A stretch of DNA of 64,000 nucleotides. Source: Hydractinia symbiolongicarpus (Eukaryota; Cnidaria; Hydrozoa; Anthoathecata; Hydractiniidae). The notes beneath the pieces are model-generated. The model was not told the origin of the DNA. It saw nothing but the letters and a program-made list of their open reading frames with translations, and did not search any database. Below, piece after piece: positions 4,347-62,630 of the stretch. The stretch is taken from NCBI RefSeq assembly GCF_029227915.1, contig NC_079883.1:15066001-15130000 (forward strand), read 5' to 3'. A program made the translations under genes and the position numbers. Each line of letters starts with the position of its first letter. Position 1 is the stretch's first letter.

Positions 4347-7300
4347 TTATTTTTTAACGCGTTTTAATTGTGGATTTTCTTGTAGCTCATTTAACTTTTT
4401 CCTAAGTTCACTGGCTGTATACAATTTCTTGAAGGATGATGTTGCGTTTGTTTTTTCTTGACGTTCTATGGGTTCTGGTGGAATTTGCACGCATCGTGTT
4501 TTTTCTTCGCCAGTTTTTCTATCCTTGTCAACAATAGCACAAGTGAGGCCTGTCCTGCAACCACACGAAAATGTTCTGCCTCTCTAAAAAAAACAGGTTA
4601 ATTATTCATAATAGTTAAGAGATGTCTGATCAGGAAAATAGAGCAGACATGAAAAACATTTTGATCAGGATTAAGTCGTTAAGTTGTCTTAGCCTTATTG
4701 TAATACATTATAATGCAATGTCCAAAACACCGCATGTTCCTTTTGTCTGTAAATACATATTTTTACAAATGTATATTCGTTATATGGCATTTTTTAAGAA
4801 CAAGTTTTAATTAGTGCAGTTGCCATGGATACACTCTTAAATAGCTCTTGTCCAAAGTCCGCGATCGTGCTTATAATGAACGGTACTTGTTTACACGAAA
4901 CTTGTTTTTCTCGTAAAGGTGTCACGTGCAACAACAAAAATGTCGCCATAATTTAATTAGATTAACTTTAGAATGTTTTCAAAACAAAAACGAATGAAAC
5001 TTGTTGCAAAAGTGCTGCCTATTATTGTGCCACCAGTTGTAAGCATATATGTTTTCCTTTCAATAGCATTAGTCCTACAAACATCCTAAGGTTATTGAAG
5101 GTAAAAAAGTGATGCTGCTTGAATGCGTGCCAATTGAAACAATATTTTTATTAAGATGTTTAGCTCCACCCCTATTCATTCTATTCTCTTTAACATTGAC
5201 CTGATGGTAATGGTATCTTTTAATCCCTGTGAACTTCTGTCAGATTTAGAATGTCCAAGAGAAGAGGATGCAAACACTGGTACTTTGTGTACGAATTCAA
5301 AGTAAGAAGTTGTTTATCAACGTATTAGTAAGCAGGTAGACGGCATGGCAATTATCTTACCTGACGGCATGGCAATTATCTTACCTGAAAGTTTATCGAG
5401 CAAATATCTCCTAAGTTACGTGTTGGCATACAAAAACCAGCATTGTTTTTTTCACGAAACGCACAACAGGAATTTTTGTCGCAATCGTCATTACGGATGC
5501 ATGCTGACAGGGCCTGAAAAGGGAATAGGAAAACTGTAAAATAACACAAAACAAGGAATTAAGTTAGTGAAGTTTATTTTCGGACTTATTTAGAGTATAG
5601 TTTAAATATCTTAACATAAGACTTGCTTACGGTTAAGAATTTACTCTTTTTTTTTTGGATTCAACTGTTTATATTTATGAAAGTTCCAGCAGAAACTATA
5701 GATAAGTCATTATATTACATAACAATAAAACTGGTAGAAAAAACTTGATTTTAAAAAACCCATAGATCTTTAACTATTAGAAAATTTAGAACAAATAGAA
5801 TAACTTATATTTGTTTGACAAAAAAATGTATCTAGTGTTAACTAGTCGACGTATCAACTCAAGAAAGATAGCTATCACCCTATCCAGTCGAAGCTGATAA
5901 GGCTGACTACTATCCATAATTTCTTACCGTTATTTTTGTTTATTAGGCGATTTTCTGCTTAATGACTTAAAACTTCAAAGACTAAGAAACAGTAAATAAC
6001 TGAATTAAGTACAGCTGCTCGCTTAGGATGATGTAGGGCATGTTTTATTCTTAGTCACAGAAAAGTCTTTTCCACGAAAGTATAGCTCAATGAAGGATTT
6101 CAGCTACAGACAAATATGATAATAACAAATCTTAGCAATCCCACCCCAATGGTAAAAATATCCTCCTCCCAATTTGAAACATTGTTTCGGTGATTATGAA
6201 ATAATTATTTTGATCAAGCTTAACGATTTTAAAATTTGTTTGTTTTTTTTTCATCAAGGTCGAGTACGACAAAAATGTATTCCCGCGTTTTACTCTCCTT
6301 CACGGTTGTTTTGTAATGCATTTCATCTGATGACTTCGCTTGCTTTGTATATTTCATTGTGGCTTTGTGTTTTCGGAAATAAAAATAAAAAGCATTAAAA
6401 AGCTTGCTAAGAAATTTTTTGTTCTGTGTTATGAGTCACAGAGCTTAAAAATAAAATACTTACATGCTCTGAATATATGGAGGAAGGAGTGCTTCATATT
6501 AATTTGCTTATAATTGCATAATTTAATCGTTATGCGATATAATAGTTTGTTGTTTTCTTTTTTTGACTTGAATTCCGGAGTAAGGCCTACATCGATGCCT
6601 AACGGGTTCTCCATTCCCGCACGAACAAAAGGTTGTTTTGACGGACGAAAGAGATTCTCACGGATGTGGAAATTGCAAAATAGCTAATTGTCTTGCTAAT
6701 CTTACGTAAAAAATATAAATTTGTGTATTCTTGTATTTGTAGAAACGTTTTCAATCACTTGATCCATTTTCTTTTAAAGGAAATACTTCAGGACTTTCCG
6801 TTACCCATTGGCTAATAAGCCATCAAGTCGAGGCGATATGAATATGGTAGAGGCGATATGAATATGGTTTTGGGAGGTCCTTAATAACTTGTTTTTATAT
6901 TTTTTTACTTAAAAGGATTTATGTAACAAAGATAAAAAAATCTTTGTCACATTATAATAACTTTACATTTATAAGATATTTTTAGCAGGGTTATTTTCCT
7001 GTTTCTTTTCGTGAGAGGTAACATAGCTTTGTAAAACCAGTTTAGGAGTACGAAGTCCAGACATATTCTACGTGCAAACATCTACCGCTGAATACGGATA
7101 TGGATACGTTATTTTCCTTCCTTCTTCTTTCCCTAATTTAATTGGATTCTTTGTGTTACGAGTTGAAATATGTGCATGAAACTCAGTCATACACCCTCTA
7201 TTTTGTCTAAATACAACTATAACACTTCGGACAGTTTCATTTTCTGTTCCTTCATACACCCACAGTTACTGAACTGAAGCCTCAAAATAAATATAACCAT

Positions 7301-19048: not shown

Positions 19049-19326
19049 CTGTAAAAAGTGACTTTCCCAGATATATAAATAGAGAAAAGTAACTCCCAGA
19101 GTGAAAAAACCTAGAAAATAATCTTGTTTAAAAATAACTCTCTAATTAACTCCTAAAAGTAGAGTAGAGTTATAATCCACTAGTAGATAAGTATTTCCTT
19201 ATGAAGGCATTGTAGCGTAATTTCGTTTCATTCGAGTTTATTCGAACTTTTTTGTTTTTTTGTAATGTTTTGTTTGTGAAATGTGTCAATTTGCAGCGAA
19301 TATTTAATGTTAAGGGTAGCAGGCTT

Positions 19327-19338
19327 CCCAGTGGGCAC
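19327..19338 (+). repeat. Left terminal inverted repeat of the 11.6 kb element
   Basis: CCCAGTGGGCAC, matched exactly in inverse orientation at 30916-30927. No other copy of this 12-mer was seen in the window. Confidence 0.85.
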
Positions 19339-19860
19339 TTCAACGTTGAATCAACGTTGAAAAGACGTTGCTTGCGACGTTGAAAAGACGTTGATTTTAC
19401 GTTGCAAATGAAAGTTTTTTTGACGTCTTTTTCCGACGTCTATTCAACGTCGGACATCAACGTCTTTTCAACGTTGAAACAACGTCTCGCAACGTCTTTT
19501 CAACGTTGAAACAACGTCTCGCAACGTCTTTTCAACGTTGAAACAACGTTGCAGGACGTTGTTTCAACGTTGAAAAGACGTTGATGTCCGACGTTGAATA
19601 GACGTCGGAAAAAGACGTCAAAAAAACTTTCATTTGCAACGTAAAATCAACGTCTTTTCAACGTCGCAAGCTACGTTGAAACAACGTCCTGCAACGTCTC
19701 TTCAACGTTGAAACAACGTCTCGCTACGTCTTTTAAACATTGAAATAACTTCTCGCAACGTCTTTTCAACGTTGAAAAAACGTCTAACAACGTCTAATCA
19801 ACGTCGTTTGGAAATGCTCTCGCAACCGTTATTCAGCGTCTTTTCAACCTTAAGAAACAG
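19339..19860. repeat. Left subterminal array of ACGTT palindromic motifs
   Basis: Dense copies of the 12-bp palindrome TTCAACGTTGAA (about seven exact) and relatives such as AACGTCTTTTCAACG and GACGTTGAAAAGACG. The right end carries a diverged array of the same motifs. Such subterminal arrays are transposase-binding sites in CACTA elements; that role here is inferred. Confidence 0.85.
19370..19671. repeat. Perfect 116-bp inverted repeat inside the left array
   Basis: Arms 19370-19485 and 19556-19671 are exact reverse complements over the blocks I compared, separated by a 70-bp spacer made of the same motifs. A transcript would form a very stable 116-bp stem. Confidence 0.85.
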
Positions 19861-20257
19861 ACAAACTTGACCGAATCAAATCATAATCGCCATTGTGGCT
19901 TCAGTTTTATATGTCCATAGTTTACATGTCCATGTATCTATTCCCTAGCATGATTCCGACGCTTATATTTGTGTTACGTTATTTGTACATGGTTATTGCG
20001 AAAAAGAAATAAAATCATTTCTACGATATGTCATTTTTTTATTATAAACATCGGCAGTATATACAACTTCTCCGCTGAAAACTTCCTAAATGAAACTTAA
20101 CGGAGTTTTATAATACAAAATATAAAAACGATATTTCAAGTATTCACAACTGGTACTATGTGAGAATCTCCAGCGTTCCAACCCAATGCAAAAAATGTAA
20201 CGCAGCAATGACGAGGTTGTTAAACGTGCAGTATTTGCAAATTTATAGCTGCGATTT

Positions 20258-20345
20258 CATGTGCCAGGCACGCCTCCTGATAAGGCAGCCTGTTAGTATG
20301 CTCAAATCACCTAAAGTGTCAAGCAAAACTGTTGCACCGAAGTCT
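20258..20345. repeat. Diverged copy of the 162-bp-array core motif
   Basis: Sequence from GCCAGGCACGCC at 20263 through GTGTCAAGCAAAACTG is about 80% alike to the core repeated at 24460-24960 and 25788, in the same orientation. It differs by substitutions and a one-base gap. Confidence 0.75.
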
Positions 20346-20798
20346 TTAATCAAGCATTGGTTAGAGAAAAAGTATGTTTTCTTAATGAAGTCAGAGTTGA
20401 ATACAAGGGTGTTTGTTAAGGATACCAGATGCGAATAAATACGATCATGATGCTATACTTTATAAAAAGTGTGAAAAGCCACCGTCCTCACCAGGTGCAA
20501 GAAGTCCAGGAATCGAGGTTGAAAATTACAATAAAAATATAATGAATATTATATTAGCACTGTATTTCCTTAAAAAAAGCACCCACTCATGCATATTCCA
20601 TACTTTTACTAGTCACAAGTCCGATCTCTAGTAGAAACACTAAAAATTGTTGAGCTAAAATCACTTTAACATTTTGCCATTCTAATTTTCTGCCACCCAA
20701 TCAAAATTAATATAAGCTAGAAGAATTTATTACGGCGCTTGAAAAATTTATAATCCTCTCTGATATAAAAGTTGTAAATTATTTAAAAATTAATCGAT

Positions 20799-23725
20799 TT
20801 AATTTTCTTCGGCATTAGTTCTTCCCGCTCCTCCACATCTATCAGGTGCATATTTAAGGATTGATGCCGTACACGCACGAACTTCTCCTTCTGTCGCATT
20901 CTTTTGATGTTTGATAACAGTTTCTACAACGTAACAAAATTCTTATCACATATTGATGGAGGTAGTTTACAGTACAACAGCTGGACAAATAGATTTCCTC
21001 AGATTAATGTGTATTTTTCCCCCTGAACGTCGACCCCTCGAAATGGCGGGAAAAACTTAATACAAACTTGTCGGTTTGGATTAGCACTTTAATAAGAGCT
21101 ATTGTATTTATTTGTACATATTTTAACCGACAATAAATAAATTAACAACAACAAACTAAAACGCTTACAAGCACATATATAAATTGAATATTAGGAATAG
21201 GATTTTTTTACTAACCGACAACAGCTTTATATAAGTTCATCCTTGCAAACCCAACCTTTTCACTTTTTCCCTTCCCTTTCATGTTGAGTGCCGACATTAC
21301 TTCATTATTCATGATTCTATAATGAAAGTGGAATAAAAGTAAAACAATCGACATCGTAAGCGCATTTAATATATAGTTGCGAGTCCATTAGGCTGCGGGG
21401 CCGCATTCCGTAAACTATTCATTCAATTAAATAATTCTTGGACCTCGTGCACGATTTTTTTATGGAGAAGATGAAACGAAGCATGTGGGCACAACAAAGT
21501 GATTTTCCACTACCACTGTAAACTACACAACAAAGGTTAGTACATTTTAAATTCTCTAAGGGGTACTTATGCTTTGACTCACTTTAACAGAACATTTTTC
21601 ACATTTTCGCGAATTTTTGAGCCACCAACTCTTGATAACTGGGATAGCTGTAAAATGAAACATATATCAATAAATATATTTCTAGCTACAGGTGCACACA
21701 AACACAAAAGTAGAAAAGTAGTATTTAGCTAGCTATAGTTGTTTCCAGGAGGGACAACAAAGGCAGTTCTTTAAGCTGTGTTCACACTTCATTAGAAGTG
21801 TAAGAATTCTCAGATCCAGGTTAACATTATCAAATTTTGAAAAAGAAAACAAGGAACTTTTGAGAAAAATGAGTGGCATATTTGGATTTATCAGCAAAAA
21901 TTATATAACATAGGAAATTTAGAATACCAAGAGATTATTAGAACAGGATTTATTGTAATTTAAAGTTTTTAAATTTTATAAGAGTTAAAAAATTTCACTG
22001 CAGTTAATTTGTGTGGTCATTTCTTCATACAACATCAAAAGTTTGGCAGTTGTACTTAGTGTATAAACTTGAAAATTTGCATGTTTCCATAAATTTTGAT
22101 GCTGAATTTAAATATGTTGGTCATTTTTGTTAAAAATGATCAGAAAATTCCAAGCATGTTAACCCGGATCCGAGAATAAGTGAACATGCTGTCAGGCTAA
22201 ATAGTGTGTTTCATGTATCCTTTGGGAAAAAATGAATGTAAATGTTTAACTGACCAATCTATCATAGTTTGACTTGTCTTTTAATGTCTCCTCAAACTCT
22301 ATTAGCTCTTGAACACTCTTTAGCAGTTCAAATGGCTCCTGTGGTTGAGCTGTGTCCGGCTCTGCTGCTTTTTCATTTTGTCTTCCCAACAAATTCCTGA
22401 TATCGGTTAGGAGATACAATACCCTCTTCTGAAACTCTAAATCATAATTGGATTTTTTATTTACTAAATATATATATACCATGTATTTCAGTGGGATATT
22501 TTAAACATATCTATTTTATTGAATCCTGCTTTGTAATTACAACTTACTTCCTGTCGACATAGGAAAGGGATCGTTTCCAGAACTTCCACCTGCATTCTGT
22601 GATCCAGATGGTGTTTGTCTTACTGGACTGACATGCTTCCTCTTTAAACTATTTGGTGGTGTATGTGTTGGTGTTGTGTTTTGATGTTGTATCAATGGTC
22701 TGACTTCTGGTGACATGATGGATGAGTCTGTAAGCACATAAAAAAGGTATTTAATATCAATGTTGTATTAAGGGTATAAAAAAGTGCGAGAATAAAAGCG
22801 TGCAAAATAAAAAAGTGTGAAACTTGTTATCCCATGAAAACACTAAAATCGCACTTCCTAAAAATGTTGCCGATTAACACTAATTAATTCCGCCCTAATC
22901 TAAAAAAATTGAGGGACTAAAATTAATCCCACACTTTTTTTATTTTCACACTTTATACCCTTAAGGTATATAATATGCCTTATGTACTAATCTTTGTGCA
23001 TATTAAATTCCACATATTTGTGCTTAAAGAATGTACATGTATATACAAATAAGAAATCTGTTTTGAACATTTTGTAAAAAAATTATGTAAGCACTTACCA
23101 GAGTCTTGAGCATCATCTTCTATATGTCGATATGTCATTGGTGGTTCACTTGGTATTGGTTTTTCTAAAAGTTTTCATTTTTGCATAAAAAAATCATAGC
23201 AACAGTGCTTTTCAAAAATAAATGTTTGAAAACTTTGAACATTTCGAAATACACAAAGTAAAAACGTAACAAGCTTTTACGAATTGCATAAAAATTGCAT
23301 AAAAATTTCTGGAATACAAAATTAATCATACTTTTTGTAAACAATACATCACAAGACGGCGAGCTTTGTTTTTTTGTGATGACTTCTTCGTCATCCGTTT
23401 CTGCCTCCGTGAAATCAAACTCCTCACATAGTTTTCTATCTGTAAAGATAATATATAATGGTTCTGATACATGATTAGTTTTTTTTAAAGTTGTATTTGA
23501 CTAATTAATTGAAGTAAAGCCACTTAGCATCGTACCTCCTGTAATTTTAACTCGGACTAGTGGAAATTTGTGCCATAATGCTGTAGGTTCTTTTAATTCT
23601 GCAGCTGCCTTCTCGACATTCAAAAAACTTGGCCAGTAGACTAAATTATTTTTTATCCAAACTGTTGGTATTGTACCTTCTTCTTCTTGTTTGTTTTCCA
23701 ACCATATTGCTCGGCTCCAACTCAT
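20799..23725 (-). CDS. DUF4806-type protein, transposon accessory gene, eight exons
   Basis: Eight minus-strand exons with GT-AG introns and continuous phase: 23725-23536, 23439-23332, 23164-23099, 22727-22548, 22463-22255, 21647-21583, 21316-21216, 20923-20799; 1044 nt, 347 residues. The start is the ATG of MSWSRAIWLENKQ. Residues 1-63 form a compact N-terminal module with TVWI and YWP motifs, as in DUF4806-bearing proteins. Residues about 64-181 are acidic, then Pro/Ser/Thr rich. From about 224 the sequence follows the DUF4806 pattern: FELLKSVQEL, FEETL, LSQLSRVGG, a NEVMSALNMKGKGKSEK block and a closing KYAPDRCGGAG segment. DUF4806 has no known activity; such proteins often accompany cnidarian and insect transposons. 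It lies downstream of, and in the same orientation as, the transposase. A shorter form would result if intron 7 were retained (stop after KAVVG). Confidence 0.82.
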
Positions 23726-24419
23726 TTTATTCAAATATAGCTAATATAAAACAATGGTTACTCAAGGGAATTAAGGATTTAAATATTGACTTAACATGAC
23801 AAGATCAAATACCGGATTGTAAGACTGTCGAATGAGGCATGAAGTTGGCTGATAGAAAATCTCAATCTTTTTCCAGCTCTTTGCAATAATTACAAGTTTA
23901 ATAACTAAGTTTTAACCTAATTTGTATATATACATAATACTAGTGGTGTGTGCAGGTCTCTGGTATAAAGCAAGTAGTGATCACCAAGTTAATTTTCTTA
24001 TTTTTGTTATAATTTTAGTGTAAGAATTGTAATTTATCAAGCAAGCAAGCACTCTATTTTTTAATAGAATTCCACAGGTGCACAAAATGTATTGAAGGAA
24101 CCTTCAAGCAGACAATACAATCATAAGTTTTCAATCCTCTACGTTTATTTATCAGCATTTTCACTTCTGCATAGTTATGAATGTCTTTCAAGTACTTAAA
24201 TGTCACAATTTTTTGCGAATCGATCGAGTTCAGATATTTCGCGGGATTAAATTTTAGTCAATATGCCTTTTTCATGAAAAGTTGGATTTTTTAAGTCAAA
24301 ACAAATTAAAAGAATTTACATGGGCTTTGGAACAAAACATGCAGCTTTTTAAATATGATGATTTATAACTAAGAATTACTAAATACTTGATATTTAGCTT
24401 CAGCTATATATTTTTTTGT

Positions 24420-24990
24420 CACAATGTTTTCGAATAGATTGCTATAAATGCTTGCATATGCCAGGCACGCCCTCTTATAAGGCAGCCTGTTAGCATGCTC
24501 CAACCACCTGTATGTGTCAAGCATAACTGGTGCACATGAAAGCAAAATAGCAAAAATTTTAAATGGTTATTGAATCAAAAGTTATATCTTCAAATAGATT
24601 GCTATAAGTATGCTTGCATGTGCCAGGCACGCCCTCTTATAAGGCAGCCTGTCAGCATGCTCCAACCACCTGTATGTGTCAAGCATAACTGGTGCACATG
24701 AAAGCAAAATAGCAAAAATTTTAAATGGTTATTGAATCAAAAGTTATATCTTCAAATAGATTGCTATAAGTATGCTTGCATGTGCCAGGCACGCCCTCTT
24801 ATAAGGCAGCCTGTCAGCATGCTCCAACCACCTGTATGTGTCAAGCATAACTGGTGCACATGAAAGCAAAATAGCAAAAAATTTAAATGGTTATTGAATC
24901 AAAAGTTATATCTTCAAATAAATTAGTAAACGTATGCTTGCATATGCCAGGCATGCATTAATTTCGCAAATCAGTCAATGAAAATTTTTG
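24420..24990. repeat. Tandem array, 162-bp period
   Basis: The core GCCAGGCACGCCCTCTTATA starts at 24460, 24622 and 24784, and a truncated fourth copy (GCCAGGCATGC) starts at 24946: exact 162-bp spacing. Copies two and three are almost identical over the whole unit, so the amplification is recent. On the minus strand each core is open for about 38 codons (LDTYRWLEHA and LPYKRACLAH in the second copy), but in-frame stops separate units, so it is not one continuous protein. Confidence 0.9.
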
Positions 24991-25133
24991 GGAGACTTAA
25001 TTTCTCGAATGCAATGCAAATTCGCAAAAAATTCTGACAATAAATATATATGTAGAATAAAATATAAATATTTTATTGTTTTGTTTTTACATAGAGTGCT
25101 CAATAAAAATCGAGCTGAATAATATATAAATTA

Positions 25134-25556
25134 TTATAATCTACTGAGTTGAATAAGCAATTGAGACAACAAAGGTCTCTCATGTGGTTTGTTTTTTAAC
25201 ATGTTTGTTGCAATCATCAAAAGCTTTTCTGATGCAACATGTTTAGCAATACTTTCAAAGTTGTATCCCAATGTATATACATCTGTTTCACAGGAGACAT
25301 ATGAGCCAGGTACATTGCGCAATTCGAATGCCAGGTGTCTGTGAATGGTGTTGTATCTTTGATGCTTTGGAGTCCCGGGTTTTATAGAGTAACGGACTGG
25401 GTCTTCCACCAAGGTTGCTTTTCCAAAATCAATTATCTTAACATGCTTCAAATTGCGCAATAAGATGTTACGTGAATGGAGATCATTGTGTAATATCCCT
25501 TTGTTGTGTAAGTCATGTAAAGCATGTATTAAATAATAAGAAATAAAAGAAATTGA
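25134..25556 (-). CDS. Protein-kinase-like C-lobe, N-lobe not found
   Basis: A 140-codon minus-strand frame reads LHDLHNKGILHNDL, with catalytic loop HND-L-x4-N, then KIIDFGKAT (DFG motif), a variant AFEL in place of APE, and DVYTLGYN before a C-terminal helix region ending LLIQLSRL and a stop at 25134-25136. These are the catalytic and metal-binding motifs of the eukaryotic protein kinase fold. The Lys-bearing N-lobe and Gly-rich loop are not visible upstream. The frame is closed by TGA at 25559-25557 and I found no convincing acceptor in frame, so the copy may be truncated or spliced from a distant exon. It sits between the DUF4806 gene and the transposase, on the same strand. A similar kinase-like family is abundant in cnidarian genomes (recollection, not checked). 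Confidence 0.65.
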   Translation of the reverse strand, partial: SISFISYYLIHALHDLHNKGILHNDLHSRNILLRNLKHVKIIDFGKATLVEDPVRYSIKPGTPKHQRYNTIHRHLAFELRNVPGSYVSCETDVYTLGYNFESIAKHVASEKLLMIATNMLKNKPHERPLLSQLLIQLSRL

Positions 25557-25756
25557 TCAACATAATCTTCTTTTTGCCTAATATAACACAATGGTATTAT
25601 GCCTAGTTATATATTATAATACATGACTAATTTTATGTGACTGACATTGTGAGCAAAATGCAATCTATATTATGAAATATAAAGTTAATTGAAGTTCACC
25701 GATTTATATATACAACTTCAAGTACTAAACACATCTTATGAGGCAGGTTTATTTTT

Positions 25757-25880
25757 CAAATAGATTTCTATAAGTATGCTTGAATGTGCCAGGCACGCCC
25801 TCTTATAAGGCAGCCTTTCAGCCTGCTCCAACCACCTGAAAGTGTCAAGCATAACTGGTGCACACCAAAGCAAAAAAGTG
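25757..25880. repeat. Dispersed copy of the 162-bp-array core
   Basis: Core GCCAGGCACGCCCTCTTATA at 25788, flanked by the same TAGATTTCTATAAGTATGCT-type left sequence as the tandem array, about 840 bp from its last unit. The minus-strand frame stays open here too, with changes such as CAT to CAG and GAC to GAA. Confidence 0.85.
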
Positions 25881-25985
25881 ATGTTTGCTTCTAGTAAGTC
25901 GATGGAATTAGTTTAACTTAAATTTAAACTTAAAAATATATAAAGAGGTTTAACATTGAATATCAGTTATTAATAAATATATATC

Positions 25986-27869
25986 CTAATTAACATCATG
26001 ATGTAGTGGAAATAATGCTAAACCTTTCTCCGTTACAATATTTACCACTTTCCTTTTCAGCTCTGTCATTGGTATTTCCATCCGTCTCAACAATCGCATT
26101 TTGTTTTGTGGAATAAGGCAAATATCTAATTTCATTGAGTCACAAGGTGAATGAAATAAGCTTTCAGTGATCTCGTTAGCTGCTACATCACATATTACAC
26201 TTTCATTCATAATTTCCTTTATAAATATGTAACTACCATTTTTCAATAAAAAACAATTATCTCTATTTCGACTTGACATCACTGTTTTTAGCACTTTTTT
26301 TGAATATTTTGTTCCACAATTTTCAAGCTCAGTAATACGTTTGACTACTTGTACTGTAGGATTTTGTGAATTACGAACAAATTTTTTTAGAATTTGCAAG
26401 TAATTTTCAAATGGAAAGCACGACATGGCATCTAAGGGCAAGTTGAATTTCTCGACGTCAGATGATAGATGAATTAAATTATGCACGTTGTATGAGCAGA
26501 AATAATTTCCATAAAATTCTTGTGAATTTGTCACAAAATATTCCAGAAGTTGATGAGCATAATTCAAGTAAGCAGACCTGATACCACCATTAGATTCCAA
26601 CATGATTTTGATAGCAATTGATAATGATAGGAAATGAGTAAAGGCTTCCTTTGACAATATACCTTTTAATACAATTGGCCCTGTGAATAGTAAGAATTGT
26701 CTAAATTCTGTGGCCTTCCATCTGCAGAATTCGTTCAGTGATCGTGGTTGACGAACAAATTCAGATGGAAGTGTACCATTTAGCTGAACCAACTTGCTGG
26801 AAATTAACGTTATTTGATTTCTGGATAATTTGCATAGTCTTGGACCATCTTTAATCAGGAAATTCAGTAGACGTTTAACGACCCCTAGACATACCAAATG
26901 CATGTAATCTAAAACAAAGTCTGTAACACAACATATGTTATACTGTATCAGGGGGCTTAATTTGAGCTGGTGTTTTTTGTACTCATATTTTAGAAAACCA
27001 GCGTCAGTACGGGGATTTTTATCAATGTCATTAAAGATTATCCGACCTTCGATATACTCTCCAGCAACAGTACAACGTTCACAACCGTCGTATCCTGTAT
27101 GGCCTTTTATGCCTTTTAAAAATTGCCTTGCTGGGGCGTCGCAAGTGAAAAAGTGCAAAGCCACTCGTACATCAATATCATTTACGATCATGGTATCACT
27201 TCGAAGTTTATGCAGCTCTTCCAGAAATTCATGGCAAAAGTATTCAACAGGTGTTGGTTTGCTATTGCCACAAAAAAGTGCTATCACAAATGGTGTTGCA
27301 TATTCAAATTGACCTAGAATTGGCCAAAATTGGGTGCTTGATGACTTATATAAAGGTATTCCATCTATATTTATTGCAAGCTTGATATATTCTGTTACGG
27401 TGATGTTCGGATTGTTAAGAAGCATTCGTCTTATTCCATTTTCTATGCCCAAGTAAACATATTTTCCCGCACAGATTGAATCTGTGTTCACGTTTCTTGG
27501 TGTCTTGAGAAGAGTGCGACTATCTTTTGGGAGAGTATGCCCATTTTTTCTCAAGATGTCCAAAAGTTCATTAACAGAATTTCTTGTAACTCTATTTCGC
27601 ACTGCCCATGACGCAAGTTCTTCCGATAATGTGATGTTTCCCATTGCATCACTTAACCACTCTTCATCACTACTACTGCCACTGTCATTTACAGTATCAG
27701 TTGAGTCAATATCACAGTCCATGCTACATGAATTGCTTTCAATGTAACACTCTTCAAAAATTTGATTTCCCCCTTCCCTGTGAGTTTCAACTGCATCATC
27801 GCTATCACTGCTTCTTGCAAGTTTGTTCACTTCAGCAATATTTTTTCTGTATCTTTTCAAATATGCCAT
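25986..27869 (-). CDS. tnp2/CACTA-type transposase, intact frame
   Basis: Single open frame of 627 residues from ATG at 27869 to the stop at 25986-25988. The N-terminal 130 residues are acidic and Ser/Asp rich. Motifs follow the plant tnp2 (Transposase_21) order: NIDGIPLYKSSS with FWPIL near residues 168-185, a CDAPARQF-LKGIKGHTG block at about 243-259 leading into a CERC pair (263-266), and DYMHLVCLGVVKRLL near 320-335. D169 and D244 are the likely catalytic aspartates; the third acidic residue I cannot place. The enzyme would cut at the element ends. It is the most upstream gene of the element, transcribed toward the kinase-like and DUF4806 genes. No frameshift or internal stop is present, so the copy may still be functional. 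Confidence 0.82.
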   Translation of the reverse strand: MAYLKRYRKNIAEVNKLARSSDSDDAVETHREGGNQIFEECYIESNSCSMDCDIDSTDTVNDSGSSSDEEWLSDAMGNITLSEELASWAVRNRVTRNSVNELLDILRKNGHTLPKDSRTLLKTPRNVNTDSICAGKYVYLGIENGIRRMLLNNPNITVTEYIKLAINIDGIPLYKSSSTQFWPILGQFEYATPFVIALFCGNSKPTPVEYFCHEFLEELHKLRSDTMIVNDIDVRVALHFFTCDAPARQFLKGIKGHTGYDGCERCTVAGEYIEGRIIFNDIDKNPRTDAGFLKYEYKKHQLKLSPLIQYNICCVTDFVLDYMHLVCLGVVKRLLNFLIKDGPRLCKLSRNQITLISSKLVQLNGTLPSEFVRQPRSLNEFCRWKATEFRQFLLFTGPIVLKGILSKEAFTHFLSLSIAIKIMLESNGGIRSAYLNYAHQLLEYFVTNSQEFYGNYFCSYNVHNLIHLSSDVEKFNLPLDAMSCFPFENYLQILKKFVRNSQNPTVQVVKRITELENCGTKYSKKVLKTVMSSRNRDNCFLLKNGSYIFIKEIMNESVICDVAANEITESLFHSPCDSMKLDICLIPQNKMRLLRRMEIPMTELKRKVVNIVTEKGLALFPLHHDVN

Positions 27870-27949
27870 GACACTAAAAAATATTTTATAATGATAAAAC
27901 GTTTTTATATCATTTGATACCTAAGGGCAGAGATTTTGGTAGAATGAAA

Positions 27950-28020
27950 ATTTGGCGGTGCCTGCCAAATTAAATTCCCCGCCAAAATTAACTTTTTCGC
28001 CATCCGCCAATTTTTTCGTG
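27950..28020. repeat. CCCGCCAAAATTAA-type dispersed motif cluster
   Basis: Several copies of a GCCAAATTAAATTCCC/CCGCCAAAATTAA motif. The same cluster recurs at 29103-29205 in this element and at 57285-57555 outside it. Confidence 0.7.
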
Positions 28021-28271
28021 TTGCTACTGTACAAGAGGATTTCAATGGACATGCTTTTAGTATTGACGACGAATGACTTTTTTTTTATCTAAAGTTGATG
28101 GTTATTAATGTAAACAAGATGCAGGCGCTGCATAAACTATCTCGCTATTAAAAATGCACAACTATGAAACATCGACAATGCGACCCAATTCTACAATTTC
28201 TGCTAACAAAAAATACAGCCTATCATTCATGGTTACAGTGGCGCGATTGAAACGTTTATGGTCTTAAACGG

Positions 28272-28915
28272 CATTTAGGTGACAAAAAATTAACACTTTG
28301 ATGTCACTATCATGTTCAGTATACCTTTTTTGTTAACTGTGCCAAATGTTGTCGAAAATAAAGTAGTTTTAATTTTTGGGCTAATTTTGGCCTAAAATGA
28401 CATTTAGGTGACAAAAAATCCAAATTTTGAAGTTACCATCATGTTCAGCATACTTTTCTTGTTAATTGAGCCAAATTTTGTCGAAAATAAAGTAGTTTTA
28501 ATTTTTGGGCAAATTTTGGCCTAAAATGACATTTAGATGACAAGAAATCCAAATTTTGATGTCACCATCATGTTCAGCATACTTTTCTTATTAACTGAGC
28601 CAAATTTTGTCGAAAGTAAAGTAGTTTTAATTTTCGGACCAATTTTGGCCTAAAATGACATTTAGGTGACAAAAAATCAAAATTTTGATGTCACCATTAT
28701 GTTCAGCATACTTTATTTGTTCACTGTGCCAAATTTGGTCGAAAATGAAGTAGTTTTAATTTTCAGACCAATTTTGGCCTAAAATGACATTTAGGTGACA
28801 AAAAATCAAAATTTTGATGTCACCATTATGTTCAGCATACTTTTTTTGTTAACTGTGCCAAATTTTGTCGAAAACAAATACCAATTTTGGTCTGAAACGT
28901 CATTTAGATGACTTC
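28272..28915. repeat. Tandem array, 129-bp period
   Basis: CATTTAGGTGACAAAAAAT starts at 28272 and its homologues start at 28401, 28530, 28659 and 28788 (exact 129-bp steps), with a sixth, shortened copy at 28901. No reading frame stays open through the unit. It lies about 0.4-1.0 kb upstream of the transposase start. Confidence 0.92.
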
Positions 28916-29102
28916 TAAGTACTTAGAGAGTTTAGGTACGAAGTTTAAATCTGTGACGTTGCAATTGACCATTTGGGACATAGTTAGCCAGTTACGAGTT
29001 GGAAACCAATACTATCCTCGCAGGCGAGATAGTAAAAACTAATGTTGTCACATGATTTACAAAGAAACAAACAATCTTTCATATTTTTAATGAGTTTTAC
29101 GT

Positions 29103-29205
29103 TATCCGTCAAATTAAATTCCCGCCAAAATTAATAAATTTTGTTCTCCGCCAAATTTAATTTTTTTTGTTATCTGCCAAATTTTCTTCCCGCCAAAATT
29201 TTTGG
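29103..29205. repeat. CCCGCCAAAATTAA-type dispersed motif cluster
   Basis: Second cluster of the motif in the element, same orientation as at 27950: AAATTCCCGCCAAAATTAA, CTCCGCCAAATTTAA and TTCCCGCCAAAATTTT. The two clusters bracket the 129-bp array. Confidence 0.7.
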
Positions 29206-30433
29206 ATTGCAAGTATGTGTAATGTACTGTAAAATAATAAAAAAAGCTGGAAATACAAAATAACAATACCAGGCTGGAACATTAAAAAAGTAAGACCACC
29301 TCAGCCTGGGCATTATATCCATTAAATATTTTTTGAGAAATCTAGCTAGCATTGTTTTTTTAGAGATAAGTCTCTGGAAATAAATTTTTCTTACATTCTG
29401 AAGAATCCCCATCTCTCTTGTACTGAAATGTCGACTTGTTGACATGCAGACAAATAACATCACTTCGGCAATTTTTTGCCGACATGGAAAAATTTGATTT
29501 AAAATAATTTAGGGTCAAACGATTTATTTCTAGAATGTGTCAAATAAATATGCGTGAAAATTTTAGCTAACTTTTTCTTTCTTTAGATTCTGCTACGAAT
29601 GCTACCGAAGCAAAGTTTACGAATTAGCATATGCTGTACAGAAATACTTTACTCACGTCTGTGGTTCTTCGCCCTTTTCGCCTTGTGAGTTGATACGAAC
29701 TTCTTAGGGGCTTAGGCGCGAATTTCCTCATCGAAAGTTTCCCGCCAATGACTAGGAGGGATATTACATGCGACAAAGTAAAGGTTTAAATATGTGAAAG
29801 CGAAGTAAATAAACAGTTATTATTGTATTATAAATTATAATTTGACAAAATGGATTGTATTTTAAATGTCTCACATCCATAATACAAGTTGAAATATTTG
29901 TTTCTCTCAAAATACGAGGACAAAAAACCCCCTGATAAATATTACAAAAAATAAATCGAACGTTTGGTACGCTCTGTTGAAAAAAAATCCATTGAATGTT
30001 TTGTGTACATTTCATGTTTGTGTTCATTCATTCTCTGATGTTATGTCACAAAAGTTTTAACATAGCATAAGAGAATGAATGCACATTCGGCTCTTATGTA
30101 AAAAAGTACATAGATGCGGCTGTAAAGTTGCAAACAAATGGTAATATTTTGAAGTAGTAAAACTGCAGTAAAATTAGCGATATATATGAAAAACAACATA
30201 ACGTCGGCATTAATATATCCAATCGCTGACAAATTACAAAAAAATTAAGTAAAACGTGCGTTCTTTATTTCTAGTTTATGACGATCTTTAACAAACACCG
30301 AGTACGCTTCGTTATTTTGTTGGACAGTTTGGAACACTTCTATGAACGTCTGTTTGAGATATAACTTTGCAGGCCAGTGTGAGACGAACTAAAACAAATA
30401 AGATTTGAACGGAACAGATTCTCGGTAAAAAGT

Positions 30434-30915
30434 TAATTTGGTGCAACGTTGAATAAACGTCGATAAGACGTCGGTTGAATCAACGTTGCAGTGCAACGTT
30501 GAATAAACGTCGATAAGACGTCGGTTGAATCAACGTTGCGGGTGCGACGTTGAATAGACGTCGGTTGAATCAACGTTGCGGGAGTGACGTTGAATAAACG
30601 TCGATAAGACGTCGGTTGAATCAACGTTGCAGTACGACGTTGAATAAACGTCGGTTTTACGATCGTTGAAACAACGTCTTTTTTCGACGTTGTATCAACG
30701 TTGATATCACGTCGGTTGAAACAACGTTGTGGAAACGACGTTGAAAAGACGTCGATGATGCGACGTTGTATTCATGTCGGAGGGCAACGTTGAAAAGACG
30801 TTGAATTTACGTCGGTTGCATCGACGTTGCAGACCCAACGTTGATTAGACGTTGAATGTTGGTTGCGACGTCGCGACCAGAATTCAACGTCTAATCAACG
30901 TTGAAAAGACGTCGT
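30434..30915. repeat. Right subterminal array of ACGTT palindromic motifs
   Basis: Alternating AACGTTGAATAAACGTCG, ATAAGACGTCGGTTGAATC and CAACGTTG blocks up to the right terminus. A near-exact duplication of about 54 bp opens the array. The motif vocabulary is that of the left array but individual units have diverged, and no 116-bp stem like that on the left is seen. Confidence 0.85.
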
Positions 30916-30927
30916 GTGCCCACTGGG
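30916..30927 (-). repeat. Right terminal inverted repeat of the 11.6 kb element
   Basis: GTGCCCACTGGG, exact reverse complement of the left terminus. It is followed by TT, which also precedes the left end. Confidence 0.85.
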
Positions 30928-32419
30928 TTACCTTTAAATCAAAAGAAAAAAGGCAGCGCATGGTTAGTGATGTACATCAATTGGCGGTAACTGTAAAACG
31001 AAAGCATTAGCATTACATATTACAAAGATATTCTACACATTCAACAATGTTCAGAGAGATTTTGCTAGGTTATGTTCCTAAATTTGTGAAACGATGTGAA
31101 ATTATGTCAAAAACATGGGAATATGGAAAGGTTGATTTCTCCTGAATTGCGTGGTTTCTTCCGAAATAACAAAGCAAATCGGAATTGATATTCAGTGGTT
31201 TGCATTGACTACTTTTGGATATGTTCAGATGCTAAATCACTCAAAGATAAAGTTGCTAAATCGGAATTAAATTATCTGCAGACATGGATGCATGAGAATC
31301 CATGACCTAGGAAAAAAAATTGTAAACAAAGTGCCGTAGTAGATTCGAACTATTTCTCCGCATTATAAAAAATTAAAACTGGAGCAAAATTCGAGCAACA
31401 AGAAAGACAAAAGCATACTTTTTACATGAACTTATTTGCCAACACGATTTAAAAAAGAGGTACATAAACAATATAGTTTGCAAATGATGTAATTAAAAAC
31501 TTAACTAAAATAACAGGAACCTTAGAACGTCGCCCTCATCCAAATGGCTTATATGAATGACAATTAAGAGTTCCCTGATAAAAGTTTTGCAGAAAATACT
31601 GTTTCTTTACAGAGCTCACAATTCAACTACGTACACGGCAATGGTTTAAACTTTATACCGCTCTATTTTACAACTTCTTGATACGACTTCAACTTAAGTT
31701 GACAACCTGTGCCACATTTTAACCAGTACTTGGGCATCGACATAAACTGAGAAAACTAACCATGACAAAGCTGCAACAGCTGACATGAAAACACACTCCA
31801 ATTCCTCGATTTTTCGGACCTTTTCAGACCGTGGGGCAGATTGTCCTATAATGCGGACATTGTGAAAAGCGTGAATTTTGGGTTTTGTCTACTTGCTTTA
31901 CTAGGCTAAAATAAAACTTTTGAGTATCCTGTCCCGCGCAATTCATTTGTTTATTTCAATTTTCCATGATGTTTTTCAAGACAATGCAACAAAATGATAG
32001 TCGAATGCATTATATTGTGGGAAAATGCGGACATTACTCTTTAAATTAATCGACGAAATACAATGGTGTTTGTTTTTGTATAGCGCTTAAAAAAAGTTAT
32101 AATTTGTTATTTAAAGTTAAAAATACTATAATTATATGTTTTGAAAGTGTTCATGTCATAGTGGTTTAGATGTTTACAACTAAACAGAATTCTTACTTTT
32201 TAAAAGAGATACTTGCTTGAGATTAATTGGACCTGTTTGCATACGCTTCGTGATGAGAAGAGTACTCACATATCTGGGAAAGAGAGTACTGACAGAAGTG
32301 ATTTAGTTTTGGGGAAAAGAGATTTATTATTATCGAAATCATTTACCCAGGATGACTTCTTCAGTTCCTATTGGTACTGCTATCAACGAATGTCCTGCTA
32401 AGGGGGCCCTATTGCATTT

Positions 32420-45883: not shown

Positions 45884-48800
45884 ATGAAGATAAAAGACGT
45901 CTATGCATCCTGGATAAACAAACGAAAGAAAGGTATTATAACAGACGAGACAAAAACAGCATCACTCAATCGAAAAATGACGACTTCTACCACGACAACG
46001 ACGCCACGCCAACGCAAAATTACCGTCGTTTCGCTTGCCTCCCATCAACACGGCATTAAAATTGAAGGCTCCGACGCCGAATTACGTAGCCGTTCCATGT
46101 CAACAATTAGACTAGATAAAGTTATATCTGAAATAAAAGAATTCCATTGGCGAACCGAAAACCAATTGAAAAAGAGTGTTAAAAAACAAGCCAAGGAGCT
46201 AGGGTGGTTCTTTGCCATCTTTGTAGTATATATTATGTTTGGTACTTTTCTATTTTTCTACATTGAAGAATGTTCTGGAGCTTCAACTCCCACTGATAAC
46301 AGTATACCTTATTATCCGATGGAAATTTCAAAACATAAAAATCTGAATAAAACTTGTTTTGATCTTTACAATGCATTTATAGAGGAAATCGTCAAAAAAT
46401 CAGATTTGAATGTAACATTGATCTCCAACCAAAGTGGACATTATCAACATTTCGATGCGAAATGCCAAAAACTAGTGATGGATTCGCCACAACCCTTCTC
46501 TTTTTCTGCATACATGGAGGGCAAAAGTTGTGAGGTGACAGATATAAAGCTATTAAAGTACGCTGAATTCACCATCTTCACTTTACTCACTATCGGTAAG
46601 AAATATTTGACACCTCGTACTTTTTTTGAATCGGCCTTAAACCCCGAGAATACTTCGTTGGAACTGATTGGGATATTTAAAAAGTTCATGCCAAGCTAGG
46701 TACGTAACTTGTTAATTCAAATTTTTAAATGATTCCACTTAATTTCAACAACTTTCAGAACTGATAAGATGCTTTGAATGGCAGCTTATCTTTTGCTTTG
46801 CTTGTAAAAGTGCTGTAGTGCCCCTTTGCTAAAACATATTGTAGCTGTAACGCTTAAAACTTGGGGTCAATCTATTCAAATCTTTGCTATGAACTGAACG
46901 ATTAAATTTGCTTTAAAAGTAATTTAAACTGACATGGAAGGCTATGTATTACAAAATATTTTTCCCTTTTTGAAACCACTTCGTGGACACTAGGCTACTC
47001 TAAAAGGGATGTATAATACCAGAAAAAATTACTACAAAAAATTACTTACAAAAAAACTTGTTGTTTATCTTGCCCAGACGAGATAAATATGTTGAAGATT
47101 ATTATCGGATGAGTTTAAAACCTACAACGCTGATCTCTTTTCATGTCAATTGTTTCGTTTCGTTAAATGTTGATGTGGTATACAGATAGAAAAGGTTATT
47201 GATGTGAATTTAAGAGTAAGCTTGTGCGCAAAATAGGCCTGAAAAGTTGTAACATCAATCACCAAATACTTTAGGTACATTAGAAGTATTTAGTAACAAC
47301 AGGCCTCTGTAATAATTACTAGTCGCTGGCTATGGAGTTATATGTAGGACAATATTCGTGTATGGTTTTCGTCGCGTCGTAATGCTTTTCGTCGTGTCGT
47401 ATCTTTCTTCGTCGTGTGGTTTTCTTCGCAGCGTAATGGTTTTCGTCGTGGCGTATTACTCATGTTGGTGTGATCTCATGTTTCGTCGCTTCGTGGGGTA
47501 TTTTACTTTGAGGCGAAATAGTTATGCTTTTTTTACACGGAATTACTAATTTCGTGAAGCTTTTACACAATATATTTTACTTTCTTTCTAGTGGCTTTGG
47601 TCTTTCTACTGGGTAAAGCTAGCTATTATTTTTGTCATTTTCTTTTAATAAACGATACATTCTTAGCTATATATTTTAAGCATGCTACACTTTATAATCT
47701 ATTATCTATTTTGTATTTTAAATGGATTCTGATAAAAATATCAAAATCTAAGTAACCTAACTGCATAAACATAAATTATTACATAAAACTCTTACACAAC
47801 ACATAATATTTTTTCATAATCACAAATGTAAAACTAACTTAAAAATGGAATATAATTTTTAGCACTAAACTAAAGGTTTTGTTTATTTTACTGCACTTTA
47901 TTCATGTGACTTTGATTTCTTGTAAGCGCTACACGAATTTAGTAATTTCGTGTTAAAAAAGAATGAAAATTTTCTCTACGAAGAAAATACGCCGCGAAGT
48001 GAAATACGCCACAAAGTGAAATATGCCGCGACGAACACAAATACGACTCGACGAAACGTTAAACCACCCCACAAAGAAAGATACGACGCGACAAAAACCA
48101 CACCACGAAGAAAAATACGACACGACGAAAAGCATTTACGACGCGACGAAAACCATACACGAATATCGTCTCATATATAACTCCATAGTTGGCCGGCTGA
48201 AAAATTTACAGTAATAATTCATGCATACTTAACATAAAGTAGTGATTCACTCTGCTGGGATCGCAGTCGAATGGGTACAAATATATCTCATTTGCAGTTT
48301 TATCCATGAATACCTAGTGCGTCAATTAACATGACTTGGATTTTAGTCCCAGCATTTTATTTGTGGTTTTAAGCATTTAAAACATTATTGCTTATACTTT
48401 CAATCATTTGTTTTCAGGTTATGGCAACACAACTCCTATAACAACTGTTGGTCGCGTGACGCTAGTTTTTTATGCAGTCTTCGGTATACCGTTAGCTGTT
48501 ACGATGTACAGCGTTGCTGGCAAACTTATAGTGCAAATAATAACTCTAGTTATCAGGATGATACAAACTCGAATCTTCAAAAATTCAACAGAAGTGCCTC
48601 ATATTCAATTGAAGACTTTGTTTGTCAGTATTTTTTTCATGCTGACCATTATGTTAACCGGTTGTGCAGTCACTACTTCGGATAAAATGGAAGATTTGGC
48701 GTTTACGTCCAGCTTTTATTTTTGGTTCGTCAGCTTATCTACGATTGGGTATGGCGATATACATTTCGATCGAAAAAAGCATCTGCAGAATCCACATTTG

Positions 48801-49220
48801 ATGATTCTATCATCGATGAATTTGCTATTTGGTCTCGGAATTATGGCTGCCATTATTGAAGCATTTTCATTGGCTCTTGAAAAAAAAGACTTACAAATGA
48901 GTACTATTATTATCGATGACGAAGATGTTGTAAATGAGGACGAGAGACCTGAAAGTGATAAAGATTTATGGGCAACAGCGATGAAAAGGTACAGGACATA
49001 TTCAAAGAATGGTGAGCAGGAATCGGAAACTAATTTAACTGAATTATCGAGTAAAGACGGAGATACCTCGACGTCAAATGGAAGCAATTCGTTTTCTCAC
49101 AATGTATTAAGTGACCGTTCATTAAAAGGTACTGTCAATCTAGGTCGAACTGACGATAATGAAAACCACATACCAACTAGTCATATGGCTCGGCTAAACG
49201 TATTTCAAGTTGGATCATGA
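45884..49220 (+). CDS. Two-pore-domain (K2P) potassium channel
   Basis: Exons 45884-46595 and 48418-49220 join in phase (GT-AG; the junction falls in the first Gly of the first filter) to give 504 residues. An intracellular Thr/Arg-rich N-terminus precedes TM1 (about 107-127, LGWFFAIFVVYIMFGTF). A long extracellular cap loop (about 130-222) has six cysteines and N-glycosylation sequons NKT, NVT and NQS. Pore 1 is TLLTIGYGN (filter at 236-241), followed by TM2 (VFYAVFGIPLAV). TM3 spans about 305-323; pore 2 is LSTIGYGD (346-351), followed by TM4. The C-terminal tail is acidic and Ser/Thr-rich. Two pores and four TM segments are diagnostic of K2P leak channels, which form dimers at the plasma membrane and set resting potential. 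The subfamily cannot be assigned by eye. The first ATG in frame was chosen; M32 is an alternative. AATAAA lies at 49322. Confidence 0.9.
47330..48188. mobile_element. Foldback/MITE-like element in the K2P intron
   Basis: About 240-bp terminal inverted repeats, 47330 to about 47570 and about 47928 to 48188, start CTATGGAGTTATAT and share ATTCGTGTATGGTTTTCGTC. Each arm is built of degenerate TTTCGTCGYGTCGTA-like subrepeats, and the CG richness contrasts with the surrounding DNA. The spacer of about 350 bp is AT-rich with no transposase. No clear target duplication. The pre-mRNA could fold into a long hairpin across the intron. Confidence 0.8.
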
Positions 49221-59995: not shown

Positions 59996-61103
59996 GTGAG
60001 AAAACTTTTACCGTTTTAAGTTAGTTTTCTGATTTTATAATTTATCTCGTCTTTTTTTTAACTCTTTGCGAAAAAATTGATCGAATCGTTAAAATAATCG
60101 TTTTTGTCCTTTTGTTAAAGCATGGGCCTAAGGTTACTTAAGAATTTCTAAATCTGTAGATTTTCTATCCGTTTTTTAAACTTGTTTGAACTGTCTTCCC
60201 TCCAAAACAGTTGAAAAAATTATCAAGTGCCCCGACAAGTCTAAAAAAGTATATGTGACAACAACAACGCTTACAACTTACCACGTTTCGCAAACTTACA
60301 CGCGAATTAATTTATTTTGTATGAAATCTAAAAGAAACAAAGTGACTCAGTGCCGCAGAAAATAGAAAAATGTAGTCTATTAAAAAAGAACATAAAAAAA
60401 ACAATACTATTTCGTCGTCTTTCTGACCTGAATCTGTTGCCATCTGACAATGTGTTTTTATCCATGTATTGACGCGAGAAACAGTACACCTTAGTGCATG
60501 AAATATATAAGTTGCATCATCATTTCGATTTTTCCATCATTCATGGCTCATGTATTGCATTTCATTTGTTAAAATTTAGAAATTTAGAAATGTAAAATGG
60601 CGTTGATCAATGTTTTTTCAACTTCTTTTCAAATTGACCTGTTTTGTTTTTTCTTCTTTTTCTTTCGTTCACGAAATTTTTACCTTTAGAAACCATAGTT
60701 TACCCCCTGGAGACACTAAATTTAACCCTCCCCCCCCCCCCCACACACACACATACACACACAACACAGAATTCCTTCCTACGGCACGGTATAAGGGAGA
60801 AATGGAGAGTGGGAAATATTACGTGACTCGATTTATGGTAAAAACATTCAGTATATTATTATTTTGTACGCTATTGGAAGAGAAACGTGTGAAAATTACA
60901 ACAGGTGCAATGGAGTCTTGTATTACGTGTCAAGGTAAATATTACACGGAAACATCTGGTCAGCAATTTCAAAGCTTTTATAACACACTTGTAAACCTGC
61001 TGGGTAGGTAAGTTTATGCAACACTTCTGCTGCAAGGTAACGATATCATATTCTTTTTTGATATTGCTTGCCTACTTCTTCAATACAAATTCAGGTTCTT
61101 TTA

Positions 61104-61319
<216 letters not shown>

Positions 61320-61739
61320 AATAACCGATTACCCCGGGCTGTACTGCAAATTATCGCCCCAGGTCTAAGTATCGTCCGAGCTTGCGAGGTTGGTGGCGAT
61401 ATCGATATCTATAAATGTATTGTAGAAGTTAATAATAATTTCAAATTTTTTCAATTTTTTTTTTCTCGTGTTTATCTACATAATAAGCAACAATTTTTCT
61501 TGACGACGCGCAATACCGCTCCATATCGGGCCATATAAACATTTGTAACGCTTTCGAATATGTATGCGAAAAAGATGTTTATGCATCGCATAATTTTACT
61601 TTTCTTTAGATAAAAAGTCATTCATTGCGAAAAAATTGAACATAGAATAATAGTACAACAGTTAATCAATCAAGCCAGCTAATCAAAAAGTAACATTAAC
61701 AAATTAAAAAACAAGTATAAAAAAATATTCAATACAGAC

Positions 61740-62630
61740 ATGTCGTTCGAAGTAGAAGCAATCGCATTGAGCATGATCATAGCATTTTCCTTGGCTTTTA
61801 ACGCACTTGTTATTGTCGCATTTTGTAAATACTTTGACACAACAAAAGTCAAAGACATATTTTTAGTAAGCTTAGCTGTAAGTGATTTATTGCAAGCAGT
61901 TATTGGTTATCCCCTCGAAGTAAAGGCTCTGTTGGTTGGCACACAAGGAGTGGACATCGCAGTATGTAAAACAATTGGTTTCTTTGTAACTTTTCTTGGT
62001 CTAGTATCAATCAATCATATTGCGTATCTGGCATTGGAACGTCTTATTGCAGTTGCTTTCCCTTACACTATTTCTAAAATGCAAACCAAGCAATTTATTG
62101 TCATTTCATTGTCGGTTATATGGTTACTTGGATTGTCCTGGGCTGTTTTTCCACTTCTCGGTTGGTCAGCTTATGCAGAAGAATCTGACGGAATACGCTG
62201 TTCTATTCAATGGTATGATACATCGGTATCTGGCAGGTCATATATATATTCATTTGTCGTGTTTGAGTACGTGATCCCAGTGGCCATTATGGCCACGTCA
62301 TTTGCAGTTGTACGTAAAGTCGCAAAAAGCATGAACGAGAGGCAAAGGCAAATCAGTGGTTCACAGCATTCTGAAGATGCAATGAAAAAACATGACAAAA
62401 TGATTGTAGTTATGGCTTCGTCATATCTGATTGCATGGACGCCATATGCATTTATATCTATTTATGGTACGATAACAGGCAATCAAATATCTGTAACTTT
62501 AAGTACAGCATTCGCAATAACGGCAAAGTCGTCAACGATGTTTAACCCAATGATATATGCATTGCTTTATAATGACTTCAGAGGAAAAGTAAAGCGTCTG
62601 TTTGGTCAACGAGTTGCTCCGGTGATGTAA
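61740..62630 (+). CDS. Opsin (cnidarian-type, intronless GPCR)
   Basis: Single-exon class A receptor of 296 residues with seven hydrophobic segments. TM2 has LAVSDL (D49). TM3 starts at C76, paired with C154 in extracellular loop 2. The DRY position is E100-R101-L102. TM6 has AWTPY. TM7 has AITAKSSTMFNPMIY, with K263 at the retinal Schiff-base position and NPxxY intact. The residue equivalent to bovine 113 is I79, not acidic. E148, six residues before C154, matches position 181, the ancestral counterion. The C-tail is short (KVKRLFGQRVAPVM) with no palmitoylation cysteine. Expected role: light-activated G-protein signalling in photoreceptive or neural cells. Intronless structure fits hydrozoan opsins. 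The ATG is preceded by AT-rich 5' sequence. G-protein class is not decided by the sequence. Confidence 0.92.
   Translation: MSFEVEAIALSMIIAFSLAFNALVIVAFCKYFDTTKVKDIFLVSLAVSDLLQAVIGYPLEVKALLVGTQGVDIAVCKTIGFFVTFLGLVSINHIAYLALERLIAVAFPYTISKMQTKQFIVISLSVIWLLGLSWAVFPLLGWSAYAEESDGIRCSIQWYDTSVSGRSYIYSFVVFEYVIPVAIMATSFAVVRKVAKSMNERQRQISGSQHSEDAMKKHDKMIVVMASSYLIAWTPYAFISIYGTITGNQISVTLSTAFAITAKSSTMFNPMIYALLYNDFRGKVKRLFGQRVAPVM

Follow-up and report, generated by a model that had tools for sequence, protein, structure and literature searches.

A young TRC-type transposon of Hydractinia symbiolongicarpus with genes for a transposase, a protein kinase and a DUF4806 protein

An 11,601-bp mobile element was characterized in a 64,000-nucleotide stretch of the Hydractinia symbiolongicarpus genome (NC_079883.1, positions 15,066,001 to 15,130,000), referred to here as the window. 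We read this element as a young, recently mobile animal TRC transposon of the CACTA superfamily that encodes its own DDE transposase of predicted RAG1/Transib fold, a coiled-coil kinase and a DUF4806 protein, and that would move by the mechanism proposed below; we put the probability of this reading at about 0.75. The initial annotation had proposed one large mobile unit with exact inverted termini, matching subterminal arrays, three genes on the same strand and recent activity. These claims held up, and the family assignment, the kinase and the extent of the DUF4806 gene required revision.

Ends, copies and deletions

The 12-bp terminal repeat CCCAGTGGGCAC occurs once in the window (at 19327), as does its reverse complement (ending at 30927). 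ACGT-core motifs crowd the arrays inside both ends, with counts above the maximum of 200 dinucleotide-preserving shuffles: 38 in the left 504 bp (shuffle mean 10.5, maximum 16) and 35 in the right 498 bp (mean 12.2, maximum 20), against 25 in the 10.6-kb interior (mean 21.5). All 25 plus-strand ACGTTGA words of the window lie inside the two arrays, as do 20 of the 25 occurrences of its reverse complement TCAACGT, and the commonest motif spacing approximates one helical turn. The repeat begins with CCCAGTG, one base away from CACAGTG, the heptamer of the recombination signal sequence; the likeness may be chance.

Copies were sought with the first 374 bases of the element, a query whose counts are lower bounds. 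At least 27 near-identical places, the window included, match at 99% or more over the whole query and are spread over all 15 contigs (C1–C15); at least 22 of the left-end matches reach the top score, and diverged matches occur besides. Twenty-two of the 26 other copies were read, L038 and L039 in part, with those at C1:19.06, C4:10.12, C5:3.94 and C10:11.64 Mb omitted. Of the 22 copies with the right end in reach (window included), 20 retain it; L020 lacks the last bases and L027 the right part. Other copies thus end at the same bases rather than elsewhere, and many loci show these ends together with the same internal order. These shared full-length copies refute the possibility that two unrelated short elements enclose host genes, to which we assign a negligible chance. 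Of the 20 copies that retain both ends, 18 are flanked by a 2-bp target duplication; in L013 and L021 it measures 3 bp.

Across 23 aligned copies, reference included (about 178 kb of summed coverage), 67 sites vary and 63 of them are private to one copy, a divergence of about 0.04%. The four shared sites comprise three changes of the reference copy itself and one common to L016 and L022; the 16 private differences of L014 may be inflated by a duplicated 162-bp unit. Such near-identity could in principle be an effect of assembly or gene conversion rather than of a recent burst. However, the flanks differ, a target duplication accompanies every one of the 20 copies that retain both ends, and most of them carry their own deletions, so this explanation is very improbable.

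Full-length copies measure 12,967 bp (L013), 13,130 bp (L014) and 12,956 bp (L038). Relative to L013, 1,363 bp are missing from the window copy, with a 4-bp microhomology at the joint; it is a deletion derivative of a full-length form of about 13 kb. Intact versions of all three genes are found at four loci, on C7 (L038), C11 (L014), C12 (L013, one DUF4806 residue changed) and C1 at 29.5 Mb (L028, one transposase residue changed). L016 and L022 have both of their deletions in common and differ in insertion site and duplication, which indicates that a deleted copy has moved, presumably via proteins of other copies.

The junction table holds 33 rows, after the L014 row and the second row of L027 were dropped from 35 as artefacts of chaining across the duplicated 162-bp unit; the L039 deletion lies outside it. 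Microhomology of 1–7 bp is found in 24 rows, 11 of which have only 1–2 bp, a length often met by chance; two rows have none and seven have filler. With the two junctions common to L016 and L022 counted once, 22 of 31 distinct junctions show microhomology. Other parts of the element are the source of the two longest fillers, one of which is an inverted copy, and the 34-base filler of L021 has no match in the element. The junctions would fit interrupted, template-switching gap repair after excision.

Every tabulated deletion in the copies read spares a central block (element 4951–5223, window 24277–24549). A required cis element was considered there; with deletions compiled by hand, and L022 and the deletion shared by L027 and L028 counted once, 11 of 500 random placements spared a similar block, which leaves the observation only suggestive.

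Four older copies (L034–L037) survive as end relics at 85–90% identity, the only protein match in them being a DUF4806 fragment of 38 residues in L034 and L035. The 20-bp left flanks are identical within the pairs L034/L035 and L036/L037, which suggests segmental duplication after insertion.

Family placement, transposase and DUF4806 gene

The initial annotation had called the element CACTA-like. Membership of the CACTA superfamily stands, but the element fits its animal TRC branch and not canonical CACTA. Canonical elements (En/Spm) make a 3-bp target duplication and members of the RAG1/Transib lineage a 5-bp one. Here both ends start with CCC rather than CACTA, a 3-bp duplication is confined to 2 of 20 copies, and the duplication is not of the 5-bp RAG1/Transib type. 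TRC elements are described as having CCC-starting ends and a 2-bp target duplication (PMC1636069), and the placement follows from these two features together with the transposase motifs.

Five loci, the window among them, encode an intact transposase. The protein contains both the Transposase_21 motif I and the animal motif A (LDxMHx3LG), as defined by published patterns (PMC1636069). Its predicted structure matches RAG1 and HzTransib above the P element and Hermes, with 7–10% sequence identity in the RAG1 and HzTransib matches; by this model the fold is that of RAG1/Transib. Relatives of the transposase were found neither in genome_contigs nor in viral_contigs. A second transposase family at 44% identity comprises seven open frames of 671–672 amino acids on C1, C3, C5, C7 and C8 (e.g., C5:5403682 and C8:990694) and is probably another young TRC family; none of its members comes closer than 3 kb to a kinase paralogue of the set used below.

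Two NCBI proteins, P0001 and P0122 (LOC130656398 and LOC130635924), join the transposase to DUF4806 exons. No genomic source of this chimera was found among the copies read; an internally deleted copy is the likely one, since no GT donor is visible by eye at the junction.

The DUF4806 gene was present and intact, as initially annotated, but extends further than first drawn, to 20799. Every intron of the revised model has GT/AG borders, and a 1,160-base public contig, in which exons 3–8 are already joined, supplied the true last exon. Of 12 copies tested, 10 have an unbroken frame, and a relative occurs in a grouper fish (34% identity over 46% of the query). A Hydra genome paper reports enrichment of DUF4218 in H. 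viridissima and of DUF4806 across the genus Hydra (PMC7642931).

The kinase and its paralogues

What had been annotated as a kinase-like C-lobe is present in the window, but only as the remnant of a larger gene. The piece missing relative to L013 contains the start of a single-exon 348-amino-acid kinase gene, whose frame is unbroken and identical at five loci (two on C1, one each on C7, C11 and C12). Full-length copies carry the motifs GSGVFGTV (122), VAVK (141), HND (231) and DFG (251). Protein database searches returned 36 matching relatives among 51 candidates, Clytia included; in an alignment of 36 sequences, D233 is invariant and K144 and D251 are conserved at 90% or more. By sequence, the full-length protein therefore has the motif set of an active kinase (G-loop, VAVK lysine, HxD and DFG). 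No kinase was found in viral_contigs, and genome_contigs gave three distant bacterial matches, which were not used.

Besides the kinase part, full-length relatives have in common a basic N-terminus and a coiled-coil-like stretch; this order, basic segment first, is conserved in six aligned relatives (the coiled coil read by eye). As bZIP proteins favour ACGT cores, of which the arrays are built, the kinase rather than the DUF4806 protein might bind the arrays through a bZIP-like N-terminus and phosphorylate partners on the DNA. We consider this quite improbable: Pfam returned no bZIP family match for five full kinases or six N-termini, and among solved structures only C/EBP-alpha was returned, at an E value of 9.4, which is chance level. 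A bZIP identity of the N-terminus is thus unsupported by either search.

A genome search with the kinase gave 52 rows, 11 of them copies of the element; the other 41 fall into 37 places, of which 15 weak or short ones were left out. The 22 paralogue places used show 35–52% identity, six being near full length without a stop and most others broken or short. Kinase paralogues lie, among other places, at C11:6.94, C1:28.06, C4:26.96, C1:27.58, C6:26.11 and C14:17.37 Mb. A separate search with Pfam Transposase_21 (PF02992) identified 15 places, all above cut-off, and no places in 14 control genomes. At 6 of these 15 places, a kinase paralogue (40–52% identical) lies within 4 kb, against a chance expectation of 0.0055, or about 0.009 with all 37 kinase places. 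All six pairs are on the same strand with the transposase upstream, at gaps of 2,045–2,622 bp; the corresponding distance in the element is about 2,200 bp. A seventh pair, at C1:31.69 Mb, came from a protein search (28% match over residues 346–513). Judged by positions, none of the 15 omitted kinase places lies within 4 kb of a PF02992 place. The link between kinase and transposase is strong and not universal, and the position of paralogues downstream of diverged tnp2-type transposases indicates that the kinase is probably an old, retained transposon gene.

Several observations weigh against the reading given at the outset. The window transposase has no PF02992 match, its place is absent from the genome search with that family, and its PF13960 score falls below cut-off; a relative, P0002 (49% identical), reaches 22.3 bits with PF02992 against a cut-off of 28.6. 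The structure model of the DUF4806 protein (predicted local distance difference test, pLDDT, 44) was too poor to be used. An intact kinase is found in 5 of 23 copies, so that most copies have lost it and yet persist, and 15 of the 22 kinase places have no tnp2 relative within 3–4 kb. Conversely, a kinase is missing from the 4 kb around 9 of the 15 PF02992 places, four of which represent one decayed, repeated locus on C9. Among the six pairs, four show the same 40–41% kinase match and look like one family, to which the C6 pair (41%) may also belong; we therefore count the further independent families as two to four. Finally, that the related loci are transposons with a kinase inside is something we infer.

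The scarcity of intact kinases and the kinase places without a transposase nearby would both be expected of a passenger, that is, a captured host kinase without a role in transposition, and large CACTA elements do capture pieces of host genes. We nevertheless regard a passenger as unlikely. Diverged paralogues occupy the same place and orientation beside other tnp2-type transposases, the basic and coiled-coil part is common to full-length relatives in addition to the kinase motifs, and five copies share one identical, uninterrupted frame.

Elsewhere in the window, host genes were identified at 48381–49220 and 61683–62630, an Ion_trans_2 channel exon and a rhodopsin-type G-protein-coupled receptor, and an open reading frame at 61062–61538 is spurious, being a (TA)n stretch. 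Features of the element are collected in Table 1.

Table 1. Features of the element, in window coordinates
Feature	Position	Strand	Remarks
Whole element	19327..30927		11,601 bp; internally deleted copy of a ~12.97-kb transposon; ends common to other copies
Target-site duplication TT, left	19325..19326		
Target-site duplication TT, right	30928..30929		
Terminal inverted repeat CCCAGTGGGCAC	19327..19338	+	
Terminal inverted repeat, second end	30916..30927	-	
Left subterminal array	19339..19830		ACGT-core motifs CAACGTCT, CAACGTTG; commonest spacing 11 bp
Near-perfect palindrome in left array	19361..19680		160-bp arms; 147/160 positions pair; centre at element base 194
DUF4806-type gene	20799..23725	-	8 exons, 338 amino acids
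DUF4806 exons 1-4	23725-23536, 23439-23332, 23164-23099, 22727-22548	-	
DUF4806 exons 5-8	22436-22255, 21647-21583, 21316-21216, 20923-20799	-	
162-bp tandem repeats	24429..24953		Interval between kinase and DUF4806 genes; beside/within the central block spared by tabulated deletions
Kinase C-lobe remnant	25134..25556	-	Full length in other copies
Deletion junction	25535..25538		1,363-bp deletion that took the kinase N-lobe; 4-bp microhomology
TRC/tnp2-type transposase	25986..27869	-	627 amino acids, intact; putative triad D169, D244, E488
129-bp tandem repeats	28272..28878		5' of the transposase
Right subterminal array	30440..30915		ACGT-core motifs

Proposed mechanism and known systems

On the minus strand, the gene order is transposase, kinase, DUF4806. 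In the mechanism we propose, the transposase would cleave the CCC ends in a RAG/Transib-like manner, and the DUF4806 protein would bind the ACGT arrays and pair the ends. The latter is cast as a counterpart of plant TnpA on the strength of being a spliced second gene with a relative in grouper fish. The kinase, which probably regulates transposition, may determine when or how the element moves by phosphorylating the transposase, the DUF4806 protein or repair factors of the host. Deletions would arise from interrupted gap repair following excision, and the deleted copies could be mobilized by proteins made elsewhere. A broader proposal, advanced tentatively and as a single package, is that in a lineage of tnp2/TRC transposons of hydrozoans, and perhaps beyond, a lineage-owned kinase has long been a working part of transposition, and that it might serve as a self-encoded phosphorylation switch, directed at the RAG1-fold transposase, by which excision or the pairing of ends is tied to cell state.

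Searches of the open-access PubMed Central (PMC) literature turned up no animal DNA transposon described as encoding a conserved kinase of its own, and a paper elsewhere is possible. If the kinase acts in transposition, the element would carry its own control by phosphorylation, which would be open to direct test. The host, a stem-cell model animal, offers natural three-gene copies alongside natural kinase-less ones, and the RAG1-like fold predicted for the transposase bears on the relation between CACTA elements and the RAG recombinase.

In the plant En/Spm system, TnpA binds subterminal repeat arrays, and internally deleted derivatives are moved in trans; we know of no kinase in it. Like the Hydractinia element, En/Spm-type CACTA elements pair a tnp2 transposase with a second, spliced protein, and their ends read CACTA where those described here read CCC (PMC1636069). 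Among cnidarian repeat surveys, the Hydractinia genome paper attributes 11% of each genome to DNA transposons, with no CACTA, EnSpm or CMC in its main text as consulted (PMC11067881), and in a paper on Hydra repeats CMC-EnSpm is one of the groups listed as putatively active (PMC12220107). SmTRC1, at 4.5 kb, is far shorter than the ~13-kb full-length form, and the parts of its description that we drew on mention neither a kinase nor DUF4806 (PMC1636069). In other respects TRC elements (SmTRC1 and others) are close to the Hydractinia element: they share the CCC start, as in the Aedes aegypti end CCCAGTCAAC, the 2-bp duplication, Transposase_21-type motifs I and A and truncated copies, and they encode further proteins from spliced transcripts (PMC1636069), to which the 8-exon DUF4806 gene model, with its spliced public contig, may correspond.
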